Shown here in pieces: positions 4,217-43,871 of a DNA stretch of 48,656 nt. Under the pieces are notes generated by a model, which was given only the letters and a program-made list of their open reading frames with translations, was not told where the DNA came from and searched no databases. The stretch covers positions 70,255 through 118,910 of the forward strand of contig NZ_FNOJ01000008.1 of assembly GCF_900107035.1 (NCBI RefSeq). Reading direction: 5' to 3'. The translations under genes and the position numbers were made by a program. How positions within the stretch are numbered: position 1 is the first letter of the stretch; each line of letters starts with the position of its first letter. This DNA comes from Alicyclobacillus hesperidum. GTDB taxonomy: Bacteria; Bacillota; Bacilli; Alicyclobacillales; Alicyclobacillaceae.

Positions 4217-4343
4217 AAGTCATTGGCAATCATCATATACTGTGAGCGTGGACACGAAGATCCTAAGTCGGTAAAGTGGGCACATAGACTTAGGGGAGTG
4301 AGTTGTGCAACCGGCCACCCGATGTGACATCTGGGTGGTTTTT
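4217..4343 (+). ncRNA. Candidate structured small RNA, about 127 nt
   Basis: The inferred transcript runs from just after the 4181-4210 promoter to the T-run of a hairpin terminator. It contains an 8-bp perfect stem (CCTAAGTC 4262-4269 with GACTTAGG 4287-4294) and ends in the hairpin at 4315-4343. No open reading frame with a ribosome binding site fits inside. I compared it from memory with 6S, SRP, tmRNA, RNase P and common riboswitch cores and recognised none. Bases 4313-4320 (GGCCACCC) can pair either in the terminator or with GGGTGGCC at 4405-4412. Read-through could therefore be regulated, making this a leader rather than a free small RNA. Confidence 0.5.
4315..4343 (+). terminator. Rho-independent terminator of the candidate small RNA
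   Basis: The stem is CCACCC+GATG / CATC+GGGTGG with one bulged T and a TGA loop, followed by five T residues (4339-4343). Confidence 0.7.
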
Positions 4344-4491
4344 CTGTTGTCCGCGTTACTCGTTGCACGCCTTGGTATCCGACATCCATGTTCTCTAGAG
4401 CAACGGGTGGCCAAACTGGGGTCAAAGGGTTATACAGAAAACAGGAGACAAGATAGTCTCCGGAACAAACCGCACACAAAACCAACCGATT

Positions 4492-4525
4492 CAGGGATGG
4501 ATACTCGCAGAGAGATCCATCCCTG
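4492..4525. terminator. Perfect 11-bp hairpin upstream of the small His-rich gene
   Basis: CAGGGATGGAT (4492-4502) pairs perfectly with ATCCATCCCTG (4515-4525) around a 12-nt loop and is followed by CTTCGTTTTG. It lies just upstream of the next promoter and could stop read-through from the 4181 promoter. The T-run is short, so the terminator role is inferred. A further hairpin, GGAGAC/GTCTCC (4444-4461), lies between the two terminators. Confidence 0.5.
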
Positions 4526-4544
4526 GCTTCGTTTTGGGCTCCTA

Positions 4545-4573
4545 TTGACCAATTGTATTCGTTTGTATACAAT
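4545..4573 (+). promoter_or_regulatory. Sigma-A promoter of the small His-rich gene
   Basis: TTGACC (4545-4550) and TACAAT (4568-4573) are spaced by 17 bp, 47 bp upstream of the ATG at 4620. The -10 is embedded in a palindromic operator. Confidence 0.7.
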
Positions 4574-4619: not shown

Positions 4620-5000
4620 ATGCGACACTTCGATGATGATTCACACAGGCATCGCGGTCCACGCGGCAGGCATGACTCGCATGAACGCCACAAACACAGT
4701 GGTGGTCCGCAAACATTCCGCCGCGGAAGAGCACTCGCCTTTCTGGAAACACTCAATGTGCGGCGTGCAACCCTTAGGCAACAGTTGGAACAGTCCGAAT
4801 TGCAATCGGTTCATCCTGTCATTGCAGGTGAGCTGAAGGCCATTGAAATGGTACGAGACGAGTTCATGGCCATGTTTGACCTGCGCGAATCTCCCGAACA
4901 AGGCGTGGATCGCAATGAACCGCCCCACCCACAGCAGAACCGACCTCTGGATGAAGAACGAACTTCTGCAACCTCCAGCCACGCAGAAGACGACGTCTAA
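4620..5000 (+). CDS. Small His-rich protein of unknown function
   Basis: The ATG at 4620 follows AAAGGAG by nine bases, which rules out the upstream starts of the same frame. The product has 126 residues. Its first 33 residues are rich in His, Arg, Asp and Gly (HFDDDSHRHRGPRGRHDSH), which could bind metal or nucleic acid. Residues about 35-85 form a predicted helical core (FRRGRALAFLETLNVRRATL, LKAIEMVRDEFMAMFDL). The C-terminus is Pro/Glu/Ser-rich and disordered. I cannot name the family. It has its own operator-bearing promoter and converges on rpoN, 50 bp away. A small regulator or metal-sensing accessory is a guess only. Confidence 0.65.
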   Translation: MRHFDDDSHRHRGPRGRHDSHERHKHSGGPQTFRRGRALAFLETLNVRRATLRQQLEQSELQSVHPVIAGELKAIEMVRDEFMAMFDLRESPEQGVDRNEPPHPQQNRPLDEERTSATSSHAEDDV

Positions 5001-5009
5001 CACATCGAA

Positions 5010-5051
5010 GGCGGGAGCCAAAGGGTGCAGTAGCGCCACGCAGTTCCCGCC
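5010..5051. terminator. Weak convergent hairpin between small gene and rpoN
   Basis: GGCGGGA (5010-5016) pairs with TCCCGCC (5045-5051) around a long loop and touches the rpoN stop. There is no T-run on either strand, so termination is possible but not strong. Confidence 0.3.
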
Positions 5052-6343
5052 TATCGTCGCCGCTTTTGCGAACTCGGGATCCCCATCTGCTCGCGATATT
5101 TCGCAACCGTGCGGCGCGACAGGACAATGCCCTGTTGCGCCATGCACTTTGCGATCTCGGCATCCGACAACGGCTTTCGCGTATCTTCCTTAGCTACCAG
5201 CGAACGGAGCACATGTTGCACCGCTTCTGCAGAAAGGCCAGATGTGGCCAATTGGGCCGGGAAAAATGCGTCCATCGCCCACACCCCGTACGGCGTTTTC
5301 ATGCTCTTGTTGCGCAGCGCGCGGCTCACGGTAGACTCGTGGATATCCAACTCTTGCGCCACCTCGCGCAACGTAAGTGGACGCATATGTCCCGGGCCGT
5401 GTTGGAAAAACGGCTGTTGCCGCGCAACAATGACTTCCGCCACCCGTAAAATCGTCATGCGACGCGTTTCGATGGCTTTGGCCATCCGCTCGATGGCTCG
5501 CAAACGTGTGCCCAGGAAAGCGCGCACCTCCGCACCACCGGATGCGAAGAGCGATCGGTAAGATGGCGAGACCCAGAGGCGGGGCTCGGCACTTTCCTGC
5601 ACGCGAACGACAAACGCTTCGCCAGCGCGCTCGACAATGACATCTGGCGGAGCCAAGGCGAACGGCTCCCTGTCCCAAGCTGCACCCGGGCGCGGGGTTA
5701 GCCGCCGAAACTGCGCTAACACTTCATAGATGTCGTCCACTGACGCGTTACAGTTCCGTGCAACGACGCGAAATTTCCCCTGCGCAAGTTCGGTCAGATG
5801 CGCAAGGAGCTTGCGAGCCAAGGCGCGATACGGCGGATCGATGCGATCCAGTTGCAAGAGCAGGCACTCCTCGACATTGCGCGCCCCCACCCCCAAAGGC
5901 TCACAACTCTGTAGCGCAAACAAGGCCCTCTCGACTTCCTCCGCAGAAACGTCGAGGCGTACGGCCGTGACGTCCAGGGGATCGGTGAAATATCCGCGCT
6001 CATCCAGGCTGTGTGCAAGTTGCTCGGCAACGCGCAGCGTGCTTGGCGCGAGTGACAGCGTGCGCAACTGCCGACAAATCTCGTCGGCAAGCGAGGGACG
6101 TTCCGCTATTTGCAGGATGAGATCAGCACGCCCGGGCCTCGCGGCGCCTAATCCGACAAACCCGCTTGCAGTCATGGCCCACGGCCACTCCCACTCCAAG
6201 CAGGGATTGTCTTGTGCCATCTCTTCCAGCATGTCAACAAGTTCAGTGGACGAAGCCTGCAAGACAGCCAGTGCCTGACGCATATCGGCGGTCATGACAA
6301 GCCTCTGACTCTGCTCCATGTCACCGCGAAACGCCATATTCAT
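5051..6343 (-). CDS. rpoN: RNA polymerase sigma-54 factor (RpoN/SigL)
   Basis: At 430 residues this has the usual SigL length. Region I is at the N-terminus (SQRLVMTADMRQALAVLQAS, AQDNPCLEW), where it contacts the AAA+ activator. The core-binding region occupies the middle. The DNA-binding HTH (LREVAQELDIHESTVSRAL) recognises -12, and the RpoN box ARRTVAKYRE near the C-terminus reads -24. The chosen start is the ATG at 6343, which has GGAG eight bases upstream inside the end of the permease gene. A GTG at 6352 overlaps the permease stop but is too close to that site. The gene is therefore translationally linked to the permease and sits behind that gene's sigma-54 promoter, which implies positive autoregulation. 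Confidence 0.95.
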   Translation of the reverse strand: MNMAFRGDMEQSQRLVMTADMRQALAVLQASSTELVDMLEEMAQDNPCLEWEWPWAMTASGFVGLGAARPGRADLILQIAERPSLADEICRQLRTLSLAPSTLRVAEQLAHSLDERGYFTDPLDVTAVRLDVSAEEVERALFALQSCEPLGVGARNVEECLLLQLDRIDPPYRALARKLLAHLTELAQGKFRVVARNCNASVDDIYEVLAQFRRLTPRPGAAWDREPFALAPPDVIVERAGEAFVVRVQESAEPRLWVSPSYRSLFASGGAEVRAFLGTRLRAIERMAKAIETRRMTILRVAEVIVARQQPFFQHGPGHMRPLTLREVAQELDIHESTVSRALRNKSMKTPYGVWAMDAFFPAQLATSGLSAEAVQHVLRSLVAKEDTRKPLSDAEIAKCMAQQGIVLSRRTVAKYREQMGIPSSQKRRR

Positions 6344-6348
6344 GCCTA

Positions 6349-7761
6349 TCACTCCGTCATCGTTTGCTGATTCACCGAAACCTGACTGCGCCGGCGATAG
6401 AACAGATAATAACTAAGGAGAACGATGACAATGATGGGCACACCAGCGTAAATGGCCATACGCTGCCCTGGAATGAAGAGAAGGCTCACCGCGATGGCCA
6501 AATTTAACACAACGCCAGCGATCGGCAAGATGGGAAATAGCGGCGTGCGATACGCCAAGGCGCGGACATCGCCTCCCTCTCGTACATACTTGCGGCGAAA
6601 GCCAATTTGCGAAGCGCAAATAATCGCCCAAGACAAGACAGCAATCAACCCGATGCCAGAGACAATCCACAAATACAGCGTATTCGGTGAAACCTGGTAA
6701 ATCCACAAAGATAACGTGCCAATGACAAGGGTGGCCAGCACTGACCAGACGGGAACCTGCGCTTTGCTCAAGCGCGTTAAAAAGCGTGGAGCCATCCCGT
6801 CGAGTGCCATCGACCAAAGAAGCCGCGACGAAGCATAAGTCCAGGACGATCCGGCGGAAAGCGCCGAAGTAATGACAATCATGTCCATAATCAGGCGCGC
6901 ATACGGGATGCCTGCAACCTGAAAGATGGTCGCGAATGGGCTGTCATTTAGGCCCGCCTTTTGCCAAGGAATGATGCCTACCAAAACAATCATGGCGATG
7001 ACATAGAACAACAAGGTGCGCACGCTCGTACTACGTACCGCGCGCGGCACGGAGCGAGCCGGATCTTTGCTTTCTCCTGCGGCAATGCCTATTAACTCGG
7101 TGCCACTGTAGGCGAAGCTAACCGGTACAAGGGCCATGAACACCGCGCCGATACCGTGTGGGAATAAGCCACCCTGGCCCGTGTAGTTGTGCAGGCCGAT
7201 GGCGCGGTGACCGGTGAGTCCAAAAATGGCCAGGATGCCCGCAATGCAAGCAGCGACAATACCAAACACCTTAATGCTGGCGAACCAAAACTCTGACTCG
7301 CCGTATACACCGACCCGGGTGACATTAAGCGCCAAATAAATCACCGCAAACAAGGCATACCAGACCCATAAGGGAACGCCAGGCAAGTACTGGTGAATGA
7401 TGATGGTCGCTGCAATCCACTCGCCGCCAATGGTGAACGCACCGTTAAGCCAATATAACCAGGCACTCAGATAACCAATGGCAGGACTGATAAATTCCTG
7501 CGCGTACGTCTTGAACGATCCGGCCACCGGCATGGCAGTCGCCAATTCGCCCAAACACATCATGACAATCGAAACAATGATGCCCCCAATCACGTACGCG
7601 AGCACGGCGCCACCTGGCCCTGCTTGATTAACGGTGTAGCCCGAGCTCAAAAACAGGCCCGTGCCAATCACTCCGCCAATCGAGATCATAAACATGTGTC
7701 GCGCGTGCATGCCTCGCCGCAGATGCGACTCCTTTTCCATGATCTGATCAAGTTGCTGCAT
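6349..7761 (-). CDS. Amino acid permease, APC/AAT family (RocE-like)
   Basis: This 470-residue, about 12-TM transporter of the amino acid-polyamine-organocation superfamily has the conserved start region (GGVIGTGLFLSSGY), the TM2-3 signature (PVAGSFKTYAQEF) and GGEWIAATIIIH in TM3-4. The start is the ATG at 7761, with GGGAGA eight bases upstream. The longer frame begins at a TTG inside the leader. A near-perfect sigma-54 promoter lies 78 bp upstream, and the arginine catabolic genes share it. Arginine or ornithine uptake is therefore the best inference (RocE role), although the family also carries lysine, histidine and others. It is co-transcribed with rpoN. Confidence 0.85.
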   Translation of the reverse strand: MQQLDQIMEKESHLRRGMHARHMFMISIGGVIGTGLFLSSGYTVNQAGPGGAVLAYVIGGIIVSIVMMCLGELATAMPVAGSFKTYAQEFISPAIGYLSAWLYWLNGAFTIGGEWIAATIIIHQYLPGVPLWVWYALFAVIYLALNVTRVGVYGESEFWFASIKVFGIVAACIAGILAIFGLTGHRAIGLHNYTGQGGLFPHGIGAVFMALVPVSFAYSGTELIGIAAGESKDPARSVPRAVRSTSVRTLLFYVIAMIVLVGIIPWQKAGLNDSPFATIFQVAGIPYARLIMDMIVITSALSAGSSWTYASSRLLWSMALDGMAPRFLTRLSKAQVPVWSVLATLVIGTLSLWIYQVSPNTLYLWIVSGIGLIAVLSWAIICASQIGFRRKYVREGGDVRALAYRTPLFPILPIAGVVLNLAIAVSLLFIPGQRMAIYAGVPIIVIVLLSYYLFYRRRSQVSVNQQTMTE

Positions 7762-7838
7762 CGATCTACTCTCCCTCGCCAAAACAATGATAACGCTTAC
7801 AACTATATCTGAAACACAGCTTTGTGATCATAAATCAC

Positions 7839-7854
7839 AGCAAGAATCGTGCCA
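7839..7854 (-). promoter_or_regulatory. Sigma-54 (-24/-12) promoter of permease-rpoN
   Basis: The minus strand reads TGGCACGATTCTTGCT, which carries the canonical -24 GG and -12 GC and matches the TGGCAC-N5-TTGCW consensus. The identical 16 bases precede rocA at 9785. Confidence 0.93.
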
Positions 7855-7954
7855 AGTGCCATGACTGGATCTCCCTAACCACGCACAAAGCCGTATCAGT
7901 CGCCCGGGGGCGCAGCAAAGCTCTCCCACCGTGGAAAAATACGCCCGCCTCGAC

Positions 7955-7979
7955 AAAAAAACGGTGCCAACGCGTTTTT
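7955..7979 (-). terminator. Terminator downstream of the RocR-like gene
   Basis: On the minus strand AAAAACG pairs with CGTTTTT and ends in seven T residues, 60-85 bp after the activator stop. The stem is AT-rich but the T-run is good. The surrounding 7855-8038 region also has room for activator sites of the permease promoter. Two similar CCACCGTG-containing blocks (near 7927 and 8000) are the only repeat I see there. Confidence 0.5.
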
Positions 7980-8038
7980 CATCCGCAAGCAGGCTTTGCA
8001 CCACCGTGAGCGGCCGTGCGTTTGCATAAGCATGCACA

Positions 8039-9559
8039 CTACTTGCGGTACACGGCCGGATCGACAGCTAATTCACGAAGCCAATACTGCAAGTTCTGGC
8101 GACTGAGCCCCAGTTCTCGTGCAGTGGCAGAAACATTCCCACCGTGGCGCGCGAGCACCTCCATCAAGATCTGGCGCTCCGCCTGTTGGACTCGTTCCCG
8201 CCATGTCCCAACTCGACTCGCTACTCGCTCGTCCCGTGTACGAGATGCAAAGTCCATCCCCTGTGTGCCTTCATCCACCGCATCTCCCCGCGCACCAGAG
8301 GTTTCATCCCACGCGGCGAGCGTATCATGTTTGCGATCCGCCCCCACCCCTGCCGGCGCTTCCCGCGATGCGTTTACTTGCAGAGCGCGTTCCAACTTGC
8401 GGCGTAGATGAAGTGGCACATGAGACAAGCCGAGTTCACGTTCATCCTGTAGTAAATTCATCGCACCTTCGACGGTATGTTCCAACTCGCGCACATTGCC
8501 TGGCCAATCGTATGCCAGAAACGCCTGTCGCAATGTCGGATGCATCCGTTCTACCGCCAAGCCAAAGCGGCGATTCAGTTTTTCAATAAACACCTCGACC
8601 AGTTGCGCAATGTCTTCTTTACGCTCGCGCAGCGGCGGGATCAACAGCGCAACGACGCTCAGTCGATAGTATAAATCCTCCCGAAGGCGTCCTGCCGCGA
8701 TGGCCTGTAGCGGGTCCTCATTGATGGTCGCGAGAATGCGAACATCGATATGCCGATCCTTTAATTCGCCCACTCGGCGCACCGCCCGTTCCTGCAGGAC
8801 GCGCAGCAGTTTGGCCTGCAGTGGCGGACTCAACGAATTTACCTCATCGAGAAGAAGCGTTCCGCCATCCGCCTGTTCGAGCAACCCAGGTCGGTCCACC
8901 GCCCCCGTGAACGCGCCGCGCGCCGTGCCAAAAAGCAGCCCTTCCATAAGCGAATCCGGGATCGCAGCACAATTTTGCGAGACAAAAGGCCCTTGGCTTC
9001 GCCTGCTCGCCGCGTGTACACTCTGCGCAAACAGCTCCTTTCCTGTCCCCGTTTCGCCAATGATGAGGACGGACGAATCCGTGCGTGCCGCCCGCATCGC
9101 CTGCTCCACCACTTCCCGGAGCACTGGACTGCTACCGACGATTGAAGCGAATGTGTAGCGAACACCCGACTGTCCGAGAAGCTGATTTTGCAGCCGTTCG
9201 ACCGGCGTCACATCGCGGGCAATCTCAACAGCGCCGAAAACGCGTCCGTCGGCGATGATGGGATACGTCCGGTTCACCGTCGTGATGGCTTTTCCACTTT
9301 GATTAAAATACGTTTGTTTTACATTTTCGCGAGCTAGGCGCAAGCGCACGGCCTGTAGCAATGTACTGCCTGCGGCATCCGGAAATGTGAACACATCTTC
9401 GATCCGCTTGCCGATCACGTCCTCCGGCCGCATGCCTTCTATATCGGCCATTTTCCGGTTGTAATAAACAGTCATGCCATTGGCATCAATGATGTGAACA
9501 CCTTCGTCCAGCCCCTTAAGAAGTCCCTCAAGCAGTCGCAAGCGAACAGCGTCTTCCAC
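8039..9559 (-). CDS. rocR: Sigma-54-dependent activator, RocR-like (PAS, AAA+, Fis HTH)
   Basis: The closest remembered relative is B. subtilis RocR. An N-terminal PAS sensor (about 10-120; LDEGVHIIDANG, VYYNRKMADIEGM) should sense ornithine or citrulline. The AAA+ domain has Walker A GETGTGKE (about 170), the sigma-54 contact loop GAFTGA (about 215), Walker B GGTLLLDEVNSL and the arginine-finger region. A Fis-type HTH (NVSATARELGLSRQNLQYWL) ends the protein. The GTG at 9559 has AGGGG eight bases upstream and reproduces the RocR N-terminus. An ATG at 9601 is possible. The longest frame, to 9775, would run almost into the rocA promoter and was rejected. A charged linker of about 70 residues between AAA+ and HTH makes it longer than RocR (506 against about 460). 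Confidence 0.9.
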   Translation of the reverse strand: MEDAVRLRLLEGLLKGLDEGVHIIDANGMTVYYNRKMADIEGMRPEDVIGKRIEDVFTFPDAAGSTLLQAVRLRLARENVKQTYFNQSGKAITTVNRTYPIIADGRVFGAVEIARDVTPVERLQNQLLGQSGVRYTFASIVGSSPVLREVVEQAMRAARTDSSVLIIGETGTGKELFAQSVHAASRRSQGPFVSQNCAAIPDSLMEGLLFGTARGAFTGAVDRPGLLEQADGGTLLLDEVNSLSPPLQAKLLRVLQERAVRRVGELKDRHIDVRILATINEDPLQAIAAGRLREDLYYRLSVVALLIPPLRERKEDIAQLVEVFIEKLNRRFGLAVERMHPTLRQAFLAYDWPGNVRELEHTVEGAMNLLQDERELGLSHVPLHLRRKLERALQVNASREAPAGVGADRKHDTLAAWDETSGARGDAVDEGTQGMDFASRTRDERVASRVGTWRERVQQAERQILMEVLARHGGNVSATARELGLSRQNLQYWLRELAVDPAVYRK

Positions 9560-9784
9560 GTCACGTTCCCCTATCCAGCAAGTTGATTGCGAACTCGACA
9601 TCCCAACGCCAGCCTTCGCGTGCAGCAAAGTCGACGTCGATAGCCGTGTATCAATATACAGCACATCTATCCATTCATACGAAAGTTGTGTGAAACTTCC
9701 CCGCAAGTACAGTTTGCACGCCCGGTACAGACTCTGCAACCGACTTCCGTTCTGCATGCCAAACCGATCAACCATCGCTCATGT
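9560..9784. promoter_or_regulatory. rocR-rocA intergenic control region
   Basis: This 225-bp stretch separates the activator start from the divergent sigma-54 promoter. It should hold the RocR enhancer sites and the activator's own promoter. On the minus strand TATATT near 9655 is a possible -10 without a convincing -35. GCAGCAAAG near 9620 recurs near 7910 upstream of the other sigma-54 promoter and is a weak candidate for a shared activator site. No clear inverted repeat was found by eye. Confidence 0.35.
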
Positions 9785-9800
9785 TGGCACGATTCTTGCT
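9785..9800 (+). promoter_or_regulatory. Sigma-54 (-24/-12) promoter of rocA-rocD-rocG-rocF
   Basis: TGGCACGATTCTTGCT lies 61 bp upstream of the rocA start. It is identical base for base to the promoter at 7839-7854 on the opposite strand. Confidence 0.93.
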
Positions 9801-9860: not shown

Positions 9861-11411
9861 ATGATACCATACCGTCCTGAACCTTTGACGGACTTCTCTG
9901 CACCACATCACCAGGAGGCGTTTGCAGTTGCGCTCGCGCGTGTGCAAGAGCAGGTCGGCCAAACGTATCCACTCATCATTGGCGGACAGACTGTCGATAC
10001 CGGTCGCTACCTGGAGTCGTACAATCCGTCCGCAAAGACCGAATTGATCGGACGTGTCGCGAAAGCTGGAAAACCAGAAATTGAACGAGCCCTTCGTTGC
10101 GCACAAGAGGCTTTTGCAATCTGGTCCGAGGTTCCCGTCGTAGAACGGGCGTCGCTCCTTTTTAAGACGGCGGCCATTCTGCGCCGACGCAAACACGAAT
10201 TCTCGGCTTGGATGTTGCTCGAAGCTGGCAAGAGCCGCGCGGAAGCCGATGCAGATACGGCAGAAGCCATCGATTTTCTCGAGTACTATGGCCGCCAAAT
10301 GCTTGCATTGGCCCAGCGTGCCGATGCCCTTTTGACGCCATTTGCTGGAGAAGACAATCATATGGAGTACATCCCGCTTGGCGTCGGCGCCATTATTCCG
10401 CCGTGGAATTTTCCCTTGGCCATTGTCACAGGAATGACGGTCTCGGCCGTCGTCGCCGGTAACACCGTGCTGCTTAAACCCGCAAGCCAAACGCCTGTCA
10501 TTGCGTACAAGATGGTGGAGGCTTTGCTGGAGGCCGGTATGCCAGCCGGCGTCGTCAACTTCGTCCCAGGCGATCCGGAGGAAATTGGCGACTTGCTGGT
10601 CGAGCACGCAGACATTCGCTTCATTTCGTTCACCGGATCGAAAGATGTCGGCTTGCGCATGAATGAGCTTGCGGCAAAGCGCATCCCGGGTCAGCGCTGG
10701 ATCAAGCGATTTGTCGCAGAAATGGGCGGCAAAGACGCCATCGTCGTCGATGCAGGGTTTGATATCGACCTGGCTGCGCGCACCATTGTTCAATCCGCAT
10801 TTGGCTTTTCCGGCCAGAAGTGTTCGGCGTGCTCGCGCGTCATCGCCCATGCTTCGCTGTACGATCCGCTCGTCGAACGGGTCGCCGCATTGACGCGCGA
10901 ACTCAAGGTGGGCGATGTGCGCGAGATGGCGCATTTCACCGGCCCGGTCATCGACCAGAAGGCATTCGCGAAGGTGACGAGTTATATCGAGATCGGCAAG
11001 CAAGAAGGGCGGCTTGTGGCTGGCGGCGGCGCATCTGCAGACACGGGATACTTTATTGAACCAACTGTTTTCGCGAATGTTGCACCCTCTTCGCGCCTGA
11101 TGCAAGAGGAGATTTTCGGGCCGGTTGTCGCCTTCACCAAATCGACGAGCTTTGAAGAGGCAATTGCTATTGCCAATCAAACGGAGTTCGGCCTGACAGG
11201 ATCCGTCCTGACCCATGACCGTTCGCATATTGCCTATGCACGACGCAAATTCCACGTGGGCAACCTATACTTTAACCGCAAGTGCACGGGCGCCATCGTA
11301 GGCGTACATCCGTTTGGTGGCTTTAACATGTCGGGCACCGACTCCAAAGCGGGTGGCCCGGACTACTTGTTGTTGTTCACACAACCGAAGGCCAGCTCCG
11401 AATTATTGTAG
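9861..11411 (+). CDS. rocA: L-glutamate gamma-semialdehyde (1-pyrroline-5-carboxylate) dehydrogenase
   Basis: The enzyme oxidises glutamate semialdehyde to glutamate with NAD+, the third step of arginine degradation and the second of proline degradation. The 516-residue aldehyde dehydrogenase has the NAD-binding segment (PPWNFPLAI, FTGSKDVGL), the catalytic glutamate region EMGGKDA (about 285) and the nucleophile in FSGQKCSACSR (about 320). Its length and the ENHMEYIP-type segment fit the RocA/PutC class. The ATG at 9861 has AAGGAGG seven bases upstream. It is the first gene of the operon behind the sigma-54 promoter and divergent from the activator. Confidence 0.95.
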   Translation: MIPYRPEPLTDFSAPHHQEAFAVALARVQEQVGQTYPLIIGGQTVDTGRYLESYNPSAKTELIGRVAKAGKPEIERALRCAQEAFAIWSEVPVVERASLLFKTAAILRRRKHEFSAWMLLEAGKSRAEADADTAEAIDFLEYYGRQMLALAQRADALLTPFAGEDNHMEYIPLGVGAIIPPWNFPLAIVTGMTVSAVVAGNTVLLKPASQTPVIAYKMVEALLEAGMPAGVVNFVPGDPEEIGDLLVEHADIRFISFTGSKDVGLRMNELAAKRIPGQRWIKRFVAEMGGKDAIVVDAGFDIDLAARTIVQSAFGFSGQKCSACSRVIAHASLYDPLVERVAALTRELKVGDVREMAHFTGPVIDQKAFAKVTSYIEIGKQEGRLVAGGGASADTGYFIEPTVFANVAPSSRLMQEEIFGPVVAFTKSTSFEEAIAIANQTEFGLTGSVLTHDRSHIAYARRKFHVGNLYFNRKCTGAIVGVHPFGGFNMSGTDSKAGGPDYLLLFTQPKASSELL

Positions 11412-11483: not shown

Positions 11484-12695
11484 ATGACGGATCAGGCACA
11501 GACCTCCACAGCACTGCGTTTGGAGCAAACATATGGAGCGAAAAACTACAACCCACTGCCAGTGGTACTGGTCAAAGGCGAAGGTGTCTGGGTTTGGGAT
11601 GAAGAGGGTAACCGTTACCTGGACATGTTGAGCGCGTATTCGGCTCTCAATCAAGGCCATCGCCACCCGAAAATCATCGCCGCCCTCAAAGATCAGGCGG
11701 ATCAAATCACACTGACCTCGCGCGCGTTTTACAACGACAAACTTGGGCGCATGTACGAACGATTGGCCAAACTCACCGGCAAGCCGATGATTTTGCCAAT
11801 GAACACAGGCGCTGAAGCGGTTGAAACGGCCATTAAGGCGGCGCGCCGCTGGGCGTATGACGTAAAACACGTACCTGCGGATCAGGCTGAAATCATCGTG
11901 TGCGAAGGGAACTTTCATGGACGCACGACGACCATCATCTCGTTCTCGTCGGACGCCGAGTACCAACGCGGCTTTGGCCCGCTGACGCCTGGATTCCGCA
12001 TCGTCCCCTACGGCGACATCGCGGCGTTGCGCGCGGCCATCACGCCAAACACCGCGGCCTTTTTGGTGGAGCCGATTCAAGGGGAAGCTGGCATTGTGTT
12101 GCCGCCGGATGGGTATCTACGCGCGGCGCATGAACTGTGTAAGCAGAACAACGTCCTCTTTATCGCCGATGAAATTCAAACAGGTCTAGGACGCACCGGG
12201 AAAATGTTCGCTTGTGAATGGGAACAAGTGGTTCCGGATGTGTACATTATTGGTAAAGCCCTCGGCGGTGGCGTGTTCCCCGTGTCGGCTGTCGCAGCGG
12301 ACGAAGAAGTCCTTGGGGTCTTTGAGCCAGGATCGCACGGTTCGACGTTCGGCGGCAATCCTCTTGGCGCCGCGGTTGCCGTGGCCGCACTTGACGTGTT
12401 GGAAGACGAGGATCTCGTCGAGCGCTCGCGCACGCTCGGAGCGGCGTTTCTTTCCCGCCTTCGCAATGTGCACAGCCCGGTGGTGAAAGAGGTGCGTGGC
12501 CGCGGTCTGTTCGTCGGGGTCGAGCTCACCACCAAAGCTCGCCCCTATTGCGAACGCTTGAAACAAGAAGGATTGCTCTGCAAAGAGACGCACGATACAA
12601 CCATCCGCTTTGCCCCGCCCCTCGTCATCCGCGAGGACGAACTGGACTGGGCACTTGCACGAATTGAACGCGTACTCACCGAGGTGACACCATGA
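11484..12695 (+). CDS. rocD: Ornithine aminotransferase
   Basis: A 403-residue class III PLP aminotransferase that converts ornithine and 2-oxoglutarate to glutamate semialdehyde and glutamate. Visible motifs are the substrate-end [15 protein letters not shown], the phosphate-binding [43 protein letters not shown] (about 230) and the PLP lysine in [15 protein letters not shown] (about 256). AGAGGATG precedes the ATG. It lies 72 bp after rocA, with no terminator between, and its stop overlaps the next start by four bases. It makes the substrate of rocA. Confidence 0.96.
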
Positions 12696-13963
12696 TTGCC
12701 GACTCTTTAATCCATGACGCGAATCAAGAGATGGATGTCCTGCGCTCGGCACAGACCGTGATCCGTGCGGCCCTCGAACAACTCGGCTACGGGCCGCAGT
12801 ACTATGAACTGCTTAAAGAACCGCTGCGCATGCTCACCGTGCGCTTTCCCGTCCGCATGGACGATGGTAGTGTACAGATCTTTACGGGTTACCGCGCCCA
12901 GCACTCGGACGCGGTTGGCCCGACCAAAGGCGGCGTTCGCTTTCACCCTGATGTCAATGAGTCGGAAGTCAAGGCACTTTCGCTTTGGATGACCATCAAG
13001 TGCGGCATCAACGGCTTGCCGTATGGCGGTGGCAAAGGCGGTGTTGTCTGCGATCCGCGCCAGATGTCGTTCGCAGAGCTCGAGCGCGTCAGCCGCGGAT
13101 ACGTTCGCGCCATTAGCCAAATTGTCGGTCCGACAAAAGACATCCCTGCGCCTGACGTGTTCACCAATTCGCAGATCATGGCGTGGATGATGGACGAATA
13201 TAGCCACCTGCGCGAGTTCGATTCCCCCGGCTTTATCACCGGCAAGCCGCGGGTGCTCGGCGGATCGGAAGGAAGGGAGACGGCGACGGCGCGAGGCGTG
13301 CTCATTTGCATCGAGGAGGCGGCACGACGGCGCGCGATGCAACTGCCCGGAGCCCGCGTCATCATTCAAGGCTTCGGCAACGCCGGCAGCTATCTGGCAC
13401 AGTTTTTGCACGAGCAGGGTGCGCGTGTGGTTGGGATCAGCGACGCATACGGCGCGCTGTACGACGAACGAGGTTTGCCAATTCCTGATCTGCTCGAACA
13501 ACGCGACTCGTTTGGCACCGTGACGACGCGCTTTCAAAACACCATCAGCAATCAAGAACTGCTTGAAAAGCCGTGTGACATCTTGGTGCCCGCCGCGATC
13601 GAAAACCAGATCACGGCAGATAACGCGGATCGCATTCAGGCAGCCATCGTTGTGGAAGCGGCGAATGGGCCGACGACCCTGGAGGCGACACGCATCCTGA
13701 GCGATCGCGGTATTTTGCTGGTGCCAGACGTACTCGCCAACTCCGGCGGCGTGACGGTATCGTACTTCGAATGGGTTCAAAATAACCAGGGGTATTACTG
13801 GACGCGCGAAGAAGTGGAACAGCGTTTGGCACAAGCCATGCGCCAGTCGTTTGAAAAGGTCTACGCCACATCGGTGCGCCATCAGGTGGATATGCGCCTC
13901 TCTGCGTACATGACAGGCATTGAACGTACGGCACAAGCTACACAGCTACGCGGCTGGCTCTAA
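12692..13963 (+). CDS. rocG: NAD-type glutamate dehydrogenase
   Basis: Oxidatively deaminates glutamate to 2-oxoglutarate and ammonia, closing the arginine route into the TCA cycle. At 423 residues it matches the RocG/GudB class. Glu/Leu/Phe/Val dehydrogenase motifs are present: [12 protein letters not shown], the catalytic lysine region [16 protein letters not shown] (about 105-118), PAPDVFTN, and the Rossmann [14 protein letters not shown] (about 225-235). The ATG at 12692 overlaps the rocD stop (ATGA), with GAGGTG five bases upstream. In B. subtilis rocG stands alone with a downstream enhancer; here it is inside the operon. A gudB designation is possible, but the location favours a RocG role. 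Confidence 0.93.
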
Positions 13964-14018: not shown

Positions 14019-14915
14019 ATGAAGGAGATTCACATCATCGGGGTACCGTCCGACTACGGTCAAAACCGCCGCGGCGTCGATATGGGGCCAAGCGCCATCC
14101 GCTATGCCGGCCTCAAGGAGAAACTTGAGCGTCTCGGCTATCGTGTCCGCGATCTTGGCGATGTCATGGTGCCAACCCCGGAAACGCGGCACATTGAGCA
14201 TCAAAAGTTGAAATATCTCAAAGAGGTCGTCTCGGTCTGCGAGGCCTTGGCTGAGCGGGTGCGCGATGCCGTCGGAAGCGGATACACCCCTGTCATTCTC
14301 GGAGGCGATCACAGCATTGCCATGGGCAGCCTCGCTGGCATGGCCGCTGCCAAGAAGCAATTCGGCGTAATTTGGTTTGACGCGCATGGCGACATGAACA
14401 CAGACGAAACCACGCCTTCCGGGAACATCCACGGCATGCCGTTAGCCGCAAGCATCGGCATCGGGCACGAGGCGCTCACGGGCCTATTCGGCATTCGCCC
14501 GAAGGTGCAGCCAGAGAATGTCGTCCTGGTCGGGGCTCGCTCTATCGATCCGCCCGAAGCAGAACTGATTCGTCAATCAGGCGTGCACGTATTCACCATG
14601 GCCGACATCGATCGGATGGGCATGGACGCCGTCATGCGCAAAGCGATTGAGCTTGCGGCAACGGGGACAGACGGTATCCATCTCAGCCTGGACCTCGACG
14701 GCCTGGATCCCATGTTTGCGCCGGGCGTCGGGACACCGGTGAATGGTGGCGTGACCTATCGCGAAGGACATCTTGCCATGGAACTTTTGTCCGAGTCCGG
14801 TACGCTTTTGTCTGTCGACGTCGTCGAAGTCAACCCCATTCTCGACCACCGCAATCAAACGGGACGCATGGCCGTCGAACTCGTGGAATCTTTGTTCGGA
14901 AAACGGGTGTTGTAA
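14019..14915 (+). CDS. rocF: Arginase
   Basis: Hydrolyses arginine to ornithine and urea, the entry step of the pathway. The 298-residue ureohydrolase carries the binuclear manganese ligands in GGDHSIA (about 94), DAHGDMN (about 120) and SLDLDGLDP (about 224), plus GNIHGMPLA and NGGVTYREGH typical of the arginase subgroup. Its start has a modest AGGGA site. The 55-bp gap after rocG has no hairpin, so it should be the last gene of the sigma-54 operon. Confidence 0.96.
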   Translation: MKEIHIIGVPSDYGQNRRGVDMGPSAIRYAGLKEKLERLGYRVRDLGDVMVPTPETRHIEHQKLKYLKEVVSVCEALAERVRDAVGSGYTPVILGGDHSIAMGSLAGMAAAKKQFGVIWFDAHGDMNTDETTPSGNIHGMPLAASIGIGHEALTGLFGIRPKVQPENVVLVGARSIDPPEAELIRQSGVHVFTMADIDRMGMDAVMRKAIELAATGTDGIHLSLDLDGLDPMFAPGVGTPVNGGVTYREGHLAMELLSESGTLLSVDVVEVNPILDHRNQTGRMAVELVESLFGKRVL

Positions 14916-42575: not shown

Positions 42576-43871
42576 TCACCGAAACATCTGCCGCTCGGAC
42601 ATCACTTGGTTCAATCCCGAGCCTGATTTGCGAACGCGGACCGCCATCGTTAGCAAAACAGCCAATACCAGAGAAAGGGCCATGAAGATGTAGGAAGCAT
42701 TCGGGCCACCGGTTACGTTATTCAGATAACCAACGAAGTATGAACCAACGAACGAACCCAAAGCTCCCATGCAATTGATGAGCGCCATCGCCACACCAGC
42801 GACATTGCTCGGCAAAATGCTTGGGACAATCGCGAAAAACGGTCCGTAAGGTGCATACATCGCACCACCTGCGATAACGAGAAGAATAAATGACATCGCA
42901 AAATGCCCAGATCCAAGCAAATACGAGAGATAGAATGCCACCGCACCGATAAGCAACGAGATCCAAACGTAAGCCTTTCGCGTATGTGGCCGCCGGTCGG
43001 ACAGAAACGAGGTCATCAACATGAGAATCGCGGCCAATAAGTACGGCACGGACGACAGCCAGCCTGTGCTCACAATGCCCACGTGTGACGCCGCCTTAAT
43101 CATCGAGGGCAACCACAGAACAAAGCCATAGACACCAATGCTCCAAAAGAAGTATTGCAAACTGAGCAGAATAACCGGTCGGGAACAGAACGCTTCCCGA
43201 TAGTTTTTTACCTGTGCCATACCCTCTTGCTCGGCAGCGAGAGTAGTGATAATCGCCTGTTGTTCTGCTTGATTTAGCCACCTCGCTTGCTCTGGTTTAT
43301 CTTTGACCACCGCCCACCAAATCACCGCCCAAATGATGGAGGGTACGCCTTCAATGATGAACATGCCTTGCCAATGAAACCATTGAATCAAATATCCGGA
43401 TATGACCGACATCCATAAAACCGTGATGGGGTTGCCAAGAATCAGAAACGTGTTCGCGCGCGATCGCTCGCCATTGGTAAACCAGTGGCTGATAAAGATG
43501 AGCATCGCAGGCATGACAACGCTTTCAACCACACCGAGCAAAAACCTATCCACGTAGAGCAAGGGCAAGTTGGTGATCACGCCTTGCAACGATGCAAAGA
43601 TCCCCCATAGAATGAGTGCCCAGAAGACCAGCTTTTTGGCGCTGTGTTTCTTTGCGTAGTGAGCGCCGGGCACTTGGAAGAAAAAGTATCCTAAGAAAAA
43701 TAAGGAGGCCAATAGCGATGATGATGCCGCACTCATGTGTAGAGCTTGCTTCAGTCCAGCCGCCGCACCCAACCCGTAGTTGGACCTATCGAGGTATGCC
43801 AAGCTGTACGTAATGAATATCACGGGAATTAGTCTTGACCATCTTGAGCTTGGCAACGATTGATGCTCCAT
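42576..43871 (-). CDS. MFS transporter, anion:cation symporter (ACS) family
   Basis: This 431-residue, 12-TM transporter has the ACS-type start (YSLAYLDRSNYGLGAAAGL), the loop 2-3 region (VPGAHYAKKHSAKKLVFWAL) and RFLLGVVESVVMPAMLIFISHWF in TM4. This family carries organic anions such as hexuronates, glucarate, tartrate or phthalate with protons. The ATG at 43871 is ten bases from AAGGGG. A LacI-type regulator lies 197 bp upstream on the same strand, and a matching operator sits between them. Uptake of a sugar acid or similar carbon source controlled by that regulator is the best inference. Confidence 0.85.
   Translation of the reverse strand: MEHQSLPSSRWSRLIPVIFITYSLAYLDRSNYGLGAAAGLKQALHMSAASSSLLASLFFLGYFFFQVPGAHYAKKHSAKKLVFWALILWGIFASLQGVITNLPLLYVDRFLLGVVESVVMPAMLIFISHWFTNGERSRANTFLILGNPITVLWMSVISGYLIQWFHWQGMFIIEGVPSIIWAVIWWAVVKDKPEQARWLNQAEQQAIITTLAAEQEGMAQVKNYREAFCSRPVILLSLQYFFWSIGVYGFVLWLPSMIKAASHVGIVSTGWLSSVPYLLAAILMLMTSFLSDRRPHTRKAYVWISLLIGAVAFYLSYLLGSGHFAMSFILLVIAGGAMYAPYGPFFAIVPSILPSNVAGVAMALINCMGALGSFVGSYFVGYLNNVTGGPNASYIFMALSLVLAVLLTMAVRVRKSGSGLNQVMSERQMFR

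Follow-up and report, generated by a model that had tools for sequence, protein, structure and literature searches.

The only sigma-54 gene detected in Alicyclobacillus hesperidum probably belongs to a roc-linked operon with a sigma-54-type promoter element

Sigma-54 (RpoN/SigL) is normally shared by many activators, and the question arises whether its gene, rpoN, can become part of the regulon of a single one. The question is raised by a stretch of 48,656 nucleotides (nt) of Alicyclobacillus hesperidum contig NZ_FNOJ01000008.1 (positions 70,255–118,910; the window below), from a 2.86-Mb draft genome designated G000, in which rocR, an amino-acid permease gene and rpoN follow each other on the minus strand and rocA, rocD, gdh and rocF on the plus strand. 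The nearest named relatives are A. tengchongensis (rpoN 96% identity) and A. sacchari (74%). From gene order, gene overlap, conserved elements and the numbers of activators and sites, all read from the sequence, we think it fairly likely that rpoN has been captured by the roc regulon, with RocR and sigma-54 exerting on the permease gene and rpoN a feedback that would be checked by CcpA and fed at a basal level.

The rpoN gene (5051–6352, minus strand; TIGR02395, 370 bits with a cut-off of 277; PF00309, PF04963 and PF04552) encodes a protein with the AID, core-binding (CBD) and DNA-binding (DBD) domains and the RpoN box SRRTVAKYRE of sigma-54 factors, and is the sole sigma-54 gene detected in the genome. 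The stop codon of the permease gene (6349–7782, minus strand; AA_permease family, PF00324, 391 bits) overlaps the first possible rpoN start (GTG at 6352) by 4 nt (GAGTGA), in agreement with the initial annotation, which had placed the start of rpoN within the end of the permease gene; the ATG at 6343, preceded by GGAG, may be the better candidate start. The two genes overlap or abut in all 8 genomes in which they are linked, i.e. those of subclades A (G000, G005 and G011) and B (G002, G008, G009, G010 and G014). The permease itself more likely starts at ATG 7761, downstream of the ribosome-binding site GAGGGAGAG. Upstream of it lies the −24/−12 element TGGCACGATTCTTGCT (7839–7854, minus strand), and the same conserved 16-mer, TGGCACGATTCTTGCT, precedes rocA (9785–9800, plus strand). 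The identity of these 16 bases, already claimed in the initial annotation, is exact, and 17 bases are shared if a leading T is included. Both copies fit the pattern TGGCAYN5TTGCW, have GG and GC in place and are located upstream of a gene, as in sigma-54 promoters. Both were kept in all 9 genomes carrying the locus, and in the 7 of these whose flanks were aligned the surroundings had diverged apart from the elements. We consider it probable that rpoN forms an operon with the permease gene, as its second member, behind a conserved −24/−12 element that also precedes rocA, and we infer promoter use at both elements. If the two overlapping genes are co-transcribed from this element, the operon would be of the autoregulated type.

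The gene between the two elements (open reading frame (ORF) 8039–9775, minus strand; PF00158, 210–213 bits; start probably near GTG 9559) encodes a protein with a PAS domain, an AAA+ domain containing GAFTGA and a Fis-type helix-turn-helix (HTH), and adjoins the roc genes; its equation with Bacillus subtilis RocR is based on domains and context. TGCA dyads resembling the upstream activating sequences of RocR, to which RocR would be the binding protein, are present upstream of the permease promoter (GTGCATGCTTATGCAA and TGCAAAGCCTGCTTGC, 7985–8037, minus strand) and of rocA (TGCAAACTGTACTTGC, 9703–9718, minus strand). In 14 regions of 260 nt upstream of both promoters from 7 genomes, TGCA occurs 67 times, compared with 12.3 (standard deviation (sd) 3.4) in base shuffles, and the dyad TGCAAANTNNNCTTGC, with at most 1 mismatch, precedes rocA in 7 of 7 genomes. 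The 260 nt upstream of the 6 roc sites of G000, G005 and G011 hold 4–6 TGCA, versus 0–3 at the other 38 consensus-like sites. Dyads of this kind are what would be expected for a dimeric activator. Between the −24/−12 element and the permease ATG, a cre-like putative CcpA site was identified (TGTAAGCGTTATCA, 7788–7801, minus strand; an exact match to TGWAANCGNTNWCA), which the initial reading of the loop had overlooked. It is found in all 9 locus genomes, 50–57 nt past −24; 3 of the copies match exactly and 6 have a single mismatch. A CcpA roadblock on B. subtilis sigL was reportedly described by Choi and Saier in 2005. By analogy with B. subtilis rocG, for which a roadblock by cre has been described (PMC4348106), the site appears positioned where such a roadblock would act. 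A second exact cre-like site, TGAAAGCGTTGTCA, is present at window 43514–43527 (minus strand).

Since rpoN lies behind a sigma-54-type promoter and adjoins its apparent sole activator, sigma-54 probably amplifies its own supply. In the circuit that we propose, for which promoter use, RocR binding, the inducer, the permease substrate, CcpA action and the strength of the loop are deduced rather than read, RocR would be activated by arginine or a breakdown product and, bound to the TGCA-dyad enhancers, would remodel sigma-54 RNA polymerase at the two promoters flanking rocR. One promoter would give RocA, RocD, Gdh and RocF, the other the permease together with sigma-54, whose translation would be coupled to that of the permease, so that sigma-54 and inducer uptake would amplify themselves for as long as arginine lasts. 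Under a preferred carbon source, CcpA at the cre site would probably halt the permease-rpoN transcript. The loop would be primed by basal sigma-54 made by read-through from rocR or from a weak sigma-A promoter. No exact sigma-54 site aimed at rocR was detected in the loci of the 9 genomes scanned, and rocR is therefore seen as the input to the loop, not as a visible member. The initial annotation had joined factor, activator and targets in one feed-forward module; with the activator not visibly inside, the circuit is better named positive feedback on sigma-54 and uptake.

How many other activators and promoters sigma-54 might serve was assessed genome-wide. Of six PF00158 matches in G000, only RocR has GAFTGA, and G000, G005 and G011 each contain a single PF00158 protein with this motif, which is RocR; matches weaker than E 1e-15 were inspected in G000. 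These three genomes are drafts (53 to about 70 contigs), in which an activator may have escaped assembly. A second match of 93–100 bits is present in each of them and lacks GAFTGA. In G000 it was rejected as a second activator on this ground (L167, 4131–5582, C32; PAS-AAA-HTH, 93 bits); it adjoins proline-catabolism-like (put-like) genes, named by eye, and is probably no longer a sigma-54 activator. The other four matches, all of 45 bits or less, were likewise rejected for want of GAFTGA. Subclade B has more activators, namely RocR, a GGFTGA protein and one to two further ones per genome; the GGFTGA loop was read in G002, G010 and G014, and also in G013, and aminotransferase genes adjoin it where inspected.

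With the pattern TTGGCAYN4YTTGCT, 4 exact and 31 one-mismatch sites were found in G000 (35 in total, compared with 20 for the reversed control pattern). The roc pair accounts for 2 of the 4 exact sites in G000, 2 of 3 in G011 and 2 of 6 in G005, and the other 7 (2, 1 and 4, respectively) all lie in open frames, although such a location is no proof that a site is non-functional. The one-mismatch sites were read individually in G000 and the exact ones in all three genomes. In G000, 29 of the 31 one-mismatch sites fall within frames that reach 130 aa (amino acids) or more and were taken as coding; another (L186) spans a probable start codon, and the last (L181), covered by frames of 133 and 77 aa only and separated from the next co-directional ORF by over 400 nt, is probably intergenic.

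A loop of this kind needs some sigma-54 to begin with, which must come by a basal route. It is likely that this supply comes through read-through from rocR or through a sigma-A-like promoter, TTGGCA-17-TATGAT (7827–7855, minus strand; 10 of 12 consensus bases), which overlies the sigma-54 element. Subclade B, with its further activators, would need a basal supply even more. The autoregulatory loop of the initial annotation stands in so far as the conserved element and the dyads fit positive feedback, but not as a closed loop. Likewise, the −24/−12 element described there as the only visible permease promoter is conserved but overlapped by the sigma-A-like sequence, and the proposition that no other promoter feeds rpoN cannot be concluded, given the weakness of the sigma-A scan and the possibility of read-through. 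In that scan, no internal promoter was found in the permease gene of the window at 9/12, while some 9/12 matches occur in the permease genes of G005, G011 and G014. The internal promoter was set aside as a candidate in the window, where the empty scan means little, since none was found for rocR in this genome either, yet rocR must be transcribed.

Several observations weigh against the proposed circuit. The overlapping sigma-A-like element is also present in G005 and, in a weaker form, in G011, i.e. in the subclade of the window. The gap between rocR and the permease gene, which are on the same strand, contains only a weak terminator-like element, so that rpoN may be fed constitutively; the RNA of this gap folds little better than shuffled sequences (z-score −1.06; 26 of 200 shuffles at least as well), and the distance from the rocR stop to the −24 element is 169–224 nt in 7 genomes. 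The dyads at the permease promoter are clear in subclade A and less regular in subclade B, whose further GAFTGA/GGFTGA activators would need sigma-54 without arginine. Arginine or ornithine is no more than the probable substrate of the permease, and the best candidate for CcpA, at 384 bits, falls short of the family cut-off of 442. A third sigma-54 promoter is also possible. The candidate site, exact in G005 (L136, 1501–1517) and with one mismatch in G000 (L161, 1501–1517), is close to the end of a frame of 76 aa and precedes by about 96 nt what is probably the start codon of a membrane-protein gene; it has 2 TGCA upstream versus 4–6 at the roc sites.

These points bear on three other explanations. 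It might be that rpoN depends chiefly on constitutive transcription, either read-through from rocR or initiation at the overlapping sigma-A-like promoter, with the sigma-54 promoter adding little under arginine and the loop being minor. The co-directional rocR with its weak terminator-like element, the 10/12 match overlying the −24/−12 element and the retention of other sigma-54-requiring activators in subclade B agree with this, whereas the overlapping element was not found in the four subclade B genomes scanned and both the −24/−12 and the cre-like sites were kept in all 9 genomes; we judge this explanation unlikely, if the strongest of the three. It is still less probable that regulation is negative, with bound sigma-54 holoenzyme mainly blocking the overlapping sigma-A promoter until RocR is active. 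In G000 and G005 the −24 element and the sigma-A −35 are the same bases, a related family has, before rpoN, a sigma-54-like element that directly follows an ATATAAT box (see below), and negative autoregulation of rpoN in R. leguminosarum is cited in PMC3538637; however, the overlap was not found outside subclade A.

That the two copies of the 16-mer are chance or non-functional consensus matches is, by contrast, hardly credible. Base composition alone predicts about 2.8 exact TGGCACN5TTGCW sites per genome, 8 of the 10 found are inside ORFs, and the window has 48 sites with at most 2 mismatches compared with 34.5 (sd 6.2) in shuffles, only a mild excess. A third exact site in the window, TGGCACAGTTTTTGCA (13395–13410, plus strand), lies within gdh and was hence taken as coding sequence. 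Conservation is a stronger test than such counts, since both elements were kept in all 9 genomes, beside an activator with intact GAFTGA, in regions that otherwise diverge. Positive feedback on the permease gene and rpoN is the reading with the best support.

To determine how widespread the arrangement is, 61 genomes including that of the window were searched, of which 51 contain rpoN; its neighbourhood was read in 40 (the window and 39 of the 50 others). A permease-rpoN pair in the roc cluster was found in 8 of the 40, all of the same genus (8 of the 15 same-genus genomes searched), with the locus of G008 split over two contigs. A branch with support 94/89 separates the linked rpoN sequences from the others, and subclades A and B are sisters in an RpoB tree containing 7 of the 8 genomes. 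Within Alicyclobacillus, the linkage is a derived feature of a single lineage. The rpoN gene is located elsewhere in G001, G003, G006, G007 and G012, and none was found in the same-genus genomes G004 and G013. In G013 (L166), which is close to subclade B and is the ninth genome with the locus, rpoN is missing through an apparent deletion of about 2.4 kb that leaves the permease frame joined to the following gene, with RocR, both −24/−12 elements and the cre-like site retained; this may be a true loss of sigma-54 or an assembly fault.

Four same-genus genomes outside this lineage (G003, G006, G007 and G012) contain rocF-gdh-rocD-rocA and rocR-permease in the same order, with 51–77% identity and without rpoN after the permease gene. 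Neither of their promoter regions has TGGCAYN5YTGCW with GG and GC at up to 1 mismatch. A relaxed scan of the rocA-rocR gap gave four sites on the strand of rocR, two with one mismatch but without GC (G006 and G012) and two with two mismatches (G006), and upstream of the permease gene a conserved GGCAGTTGTGTT block keeps GG but not GC. TGCA-type dyads are also visible by eye in these roc regions. The RocR proteins of these genomes (L263–L266, from G003, G006, G012 and G007, respectively) read GAFPGA instead of GAFTGA, and the threonine of this motif is critical for sigma-54 contact in PspF (PMC2941729). A search of two of the four genomes, G003 and G012, showed that they retain canonical sites such as TTGGCACGGTTCTTGCT, of which 3 of 4 adjoin an activator with GAFTGA or GSFTGA; in G007, too, a canonical site adjoins a GAFTGA activator. 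With GAFPGA in RocR, no canonical roc sites and canonical sites elsewhere, the roc clusters of these species look decoupled from sigma-54.

In subclade A, RocR is the sole usable activator detected, and sigma-54 would thus serve essentially one locus. Whether it has become there a private, self-amplifying switch (one activator and two promoters flanking rocR), perhaps for an all-or-none use of arginine, while the RocR of related species with GAFPGA lost contact with sigma-54 and their roc promoters are without −24/−12 elements, is in our judgement evenly balanced. This larger point, one activator per genome and relatives that took the opposite course, had been missed in the initial reading. 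If true, it illustrates how a shared sigma factor becomes dedicated, its gene moving into the one locus that remains. Related species would represent a stage with rpoN elsewhere, several activators and RocR apparently decoupled; the next stages would be rpoN captured with several activators kept, and captured with one activator left, followed by the one genome where the captured gene seems deleted. It is predicted that the other sigma-54 promoters of subclade B depend on arginine or on a basal promoter.

Between subclades A and B, RpoN shares only 40–43% identity, compared with 87–88% for the permease and 78–80% for RocA. Faster evolution of the captured rpoN was nevertheless rejected: the ratio of RpoN to RpoB distance between the subclades (median 25, range 20–27, 12 pairs) is no higher than that between same-genus genomes whose rpoN is unlinked (median 34, range 23–36, 6 pairs), so capture alone did not accelerate RpoN. 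Within subclade B the median is 21 (17–42, 6 pairs) and within subclade A 64 (41–77, 3 pairs), the latter being noisy since RpoB distances there are 0.001–0.006.

Sigma-54 autoregulation and single-activator genomes are already known elsewhere. In Mesorhizobium loti, rpoN2 occupies the second position in the operon prxS-rpoN2, whose promoter depends on NifA and RpoN (PMC3538637), an arrangement like the one considered probable here, but it is a second, symbiotic copy in the presence of another rpoN, whereas the Alicyclobacillus gene is the only one and belongs to a Gram-positive amino-acid catabolic cluster. In B. subtilis, RocR and SigL drive rocABC, rocDEF and rocG (PMC4348106), a regulon that resembles the circuit proposed here in RocR and sigma-54 and, putatively, in CcpA. 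SigL is shared there by several activators, five of which are reported (PMC3162934), in contrast to the one found in subclade A. Single-activator genomes include those of Chlamydia trachomatis, Lactobacillus plantarum and Borrelia, for which the accessible parts of PMC3162934 do not describe rpoN inside the activator's own regulon. The same source lists TyrR, DhaR and HupR as activators that lost sigma-54 contact; the GAFPGA-type RocR and the PAS-AAA-HTH protein of the put-like locus resemble these and are probably no longer sigma-54 activators, with the difference that the GAFPGA change occurred in a relative of the lineage that captured rpoN. The initial annotation contrasted the arrangement with that of B. 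subtilis, in which sigL is not known to be part of the roc cluster. A literature search by title and opening of the abstract returned no paper on sigma-54 in Alicyclobacillus, and the combination of an only rpoN, within the catabolic regulon of an only activator, with uncaptured relatives and relatives of opposite outcome, was not found described in the material it covered.

Across Bacilli and other classes, rpoN orthologues are over-represented downstream of predicted sigma-54 promoters (PMC12316311); this enrichment is at class level, 'Alicyclobac-' does not occur in the main text of that paper, and the parts available make no mention of a roc capture. In one family, 7 of 11 loci have a sigma-54-like element with one mismatch directed toward rpoN, 37–74 nt before it (L098–L103 and L105; G038–G043 and G045), six of the seven directly after an ATATAAT box. 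In other genera of the family to which Alicyclobacillus belongs, 9 of 17 loci have an exact TGGCAYN5YTGCW pointing away from rpoN (L081, L084, L086, L089–L092, L094 and L096); the gene divergent from rpoN is ProC/ComER-like by eye in G036, and also in two genomes from another family, G042 and G043. The background of this pattern is 0.024 per 300 nt and strand, and since the pattern was widened to YTGCW after inspection of the sites and the genomes are related, the counts near rpoN are descriptive. Contact of sigma-54 with its own gene seems to be recurrent in the order, in agreement with the class-level enrichment.

The remaining roc genes are on the plus strand: rocA (9861–11411), rocD (11484–12695) and rocF (14019–14915) score over their NCBIfam cut-offs, and gdh (12692–13963) matches Pfam ELFV_dehydrog. 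The best NCBIfam match of the permease is S-methylmethionine permease, under the cut-off of that family. Downstream of rpoN, a small gene (about 4620–5000) comes after a cyclic di-GMP (c-di-GMP-II) riboswitch (window 4241–4324, plus strand; Rfam RF01786, 61.9 bits with a gathering threshold of 53.5), which is followed by a strong hairpin at about 4490–4530 (z-score −5.2 for 4440–4560).

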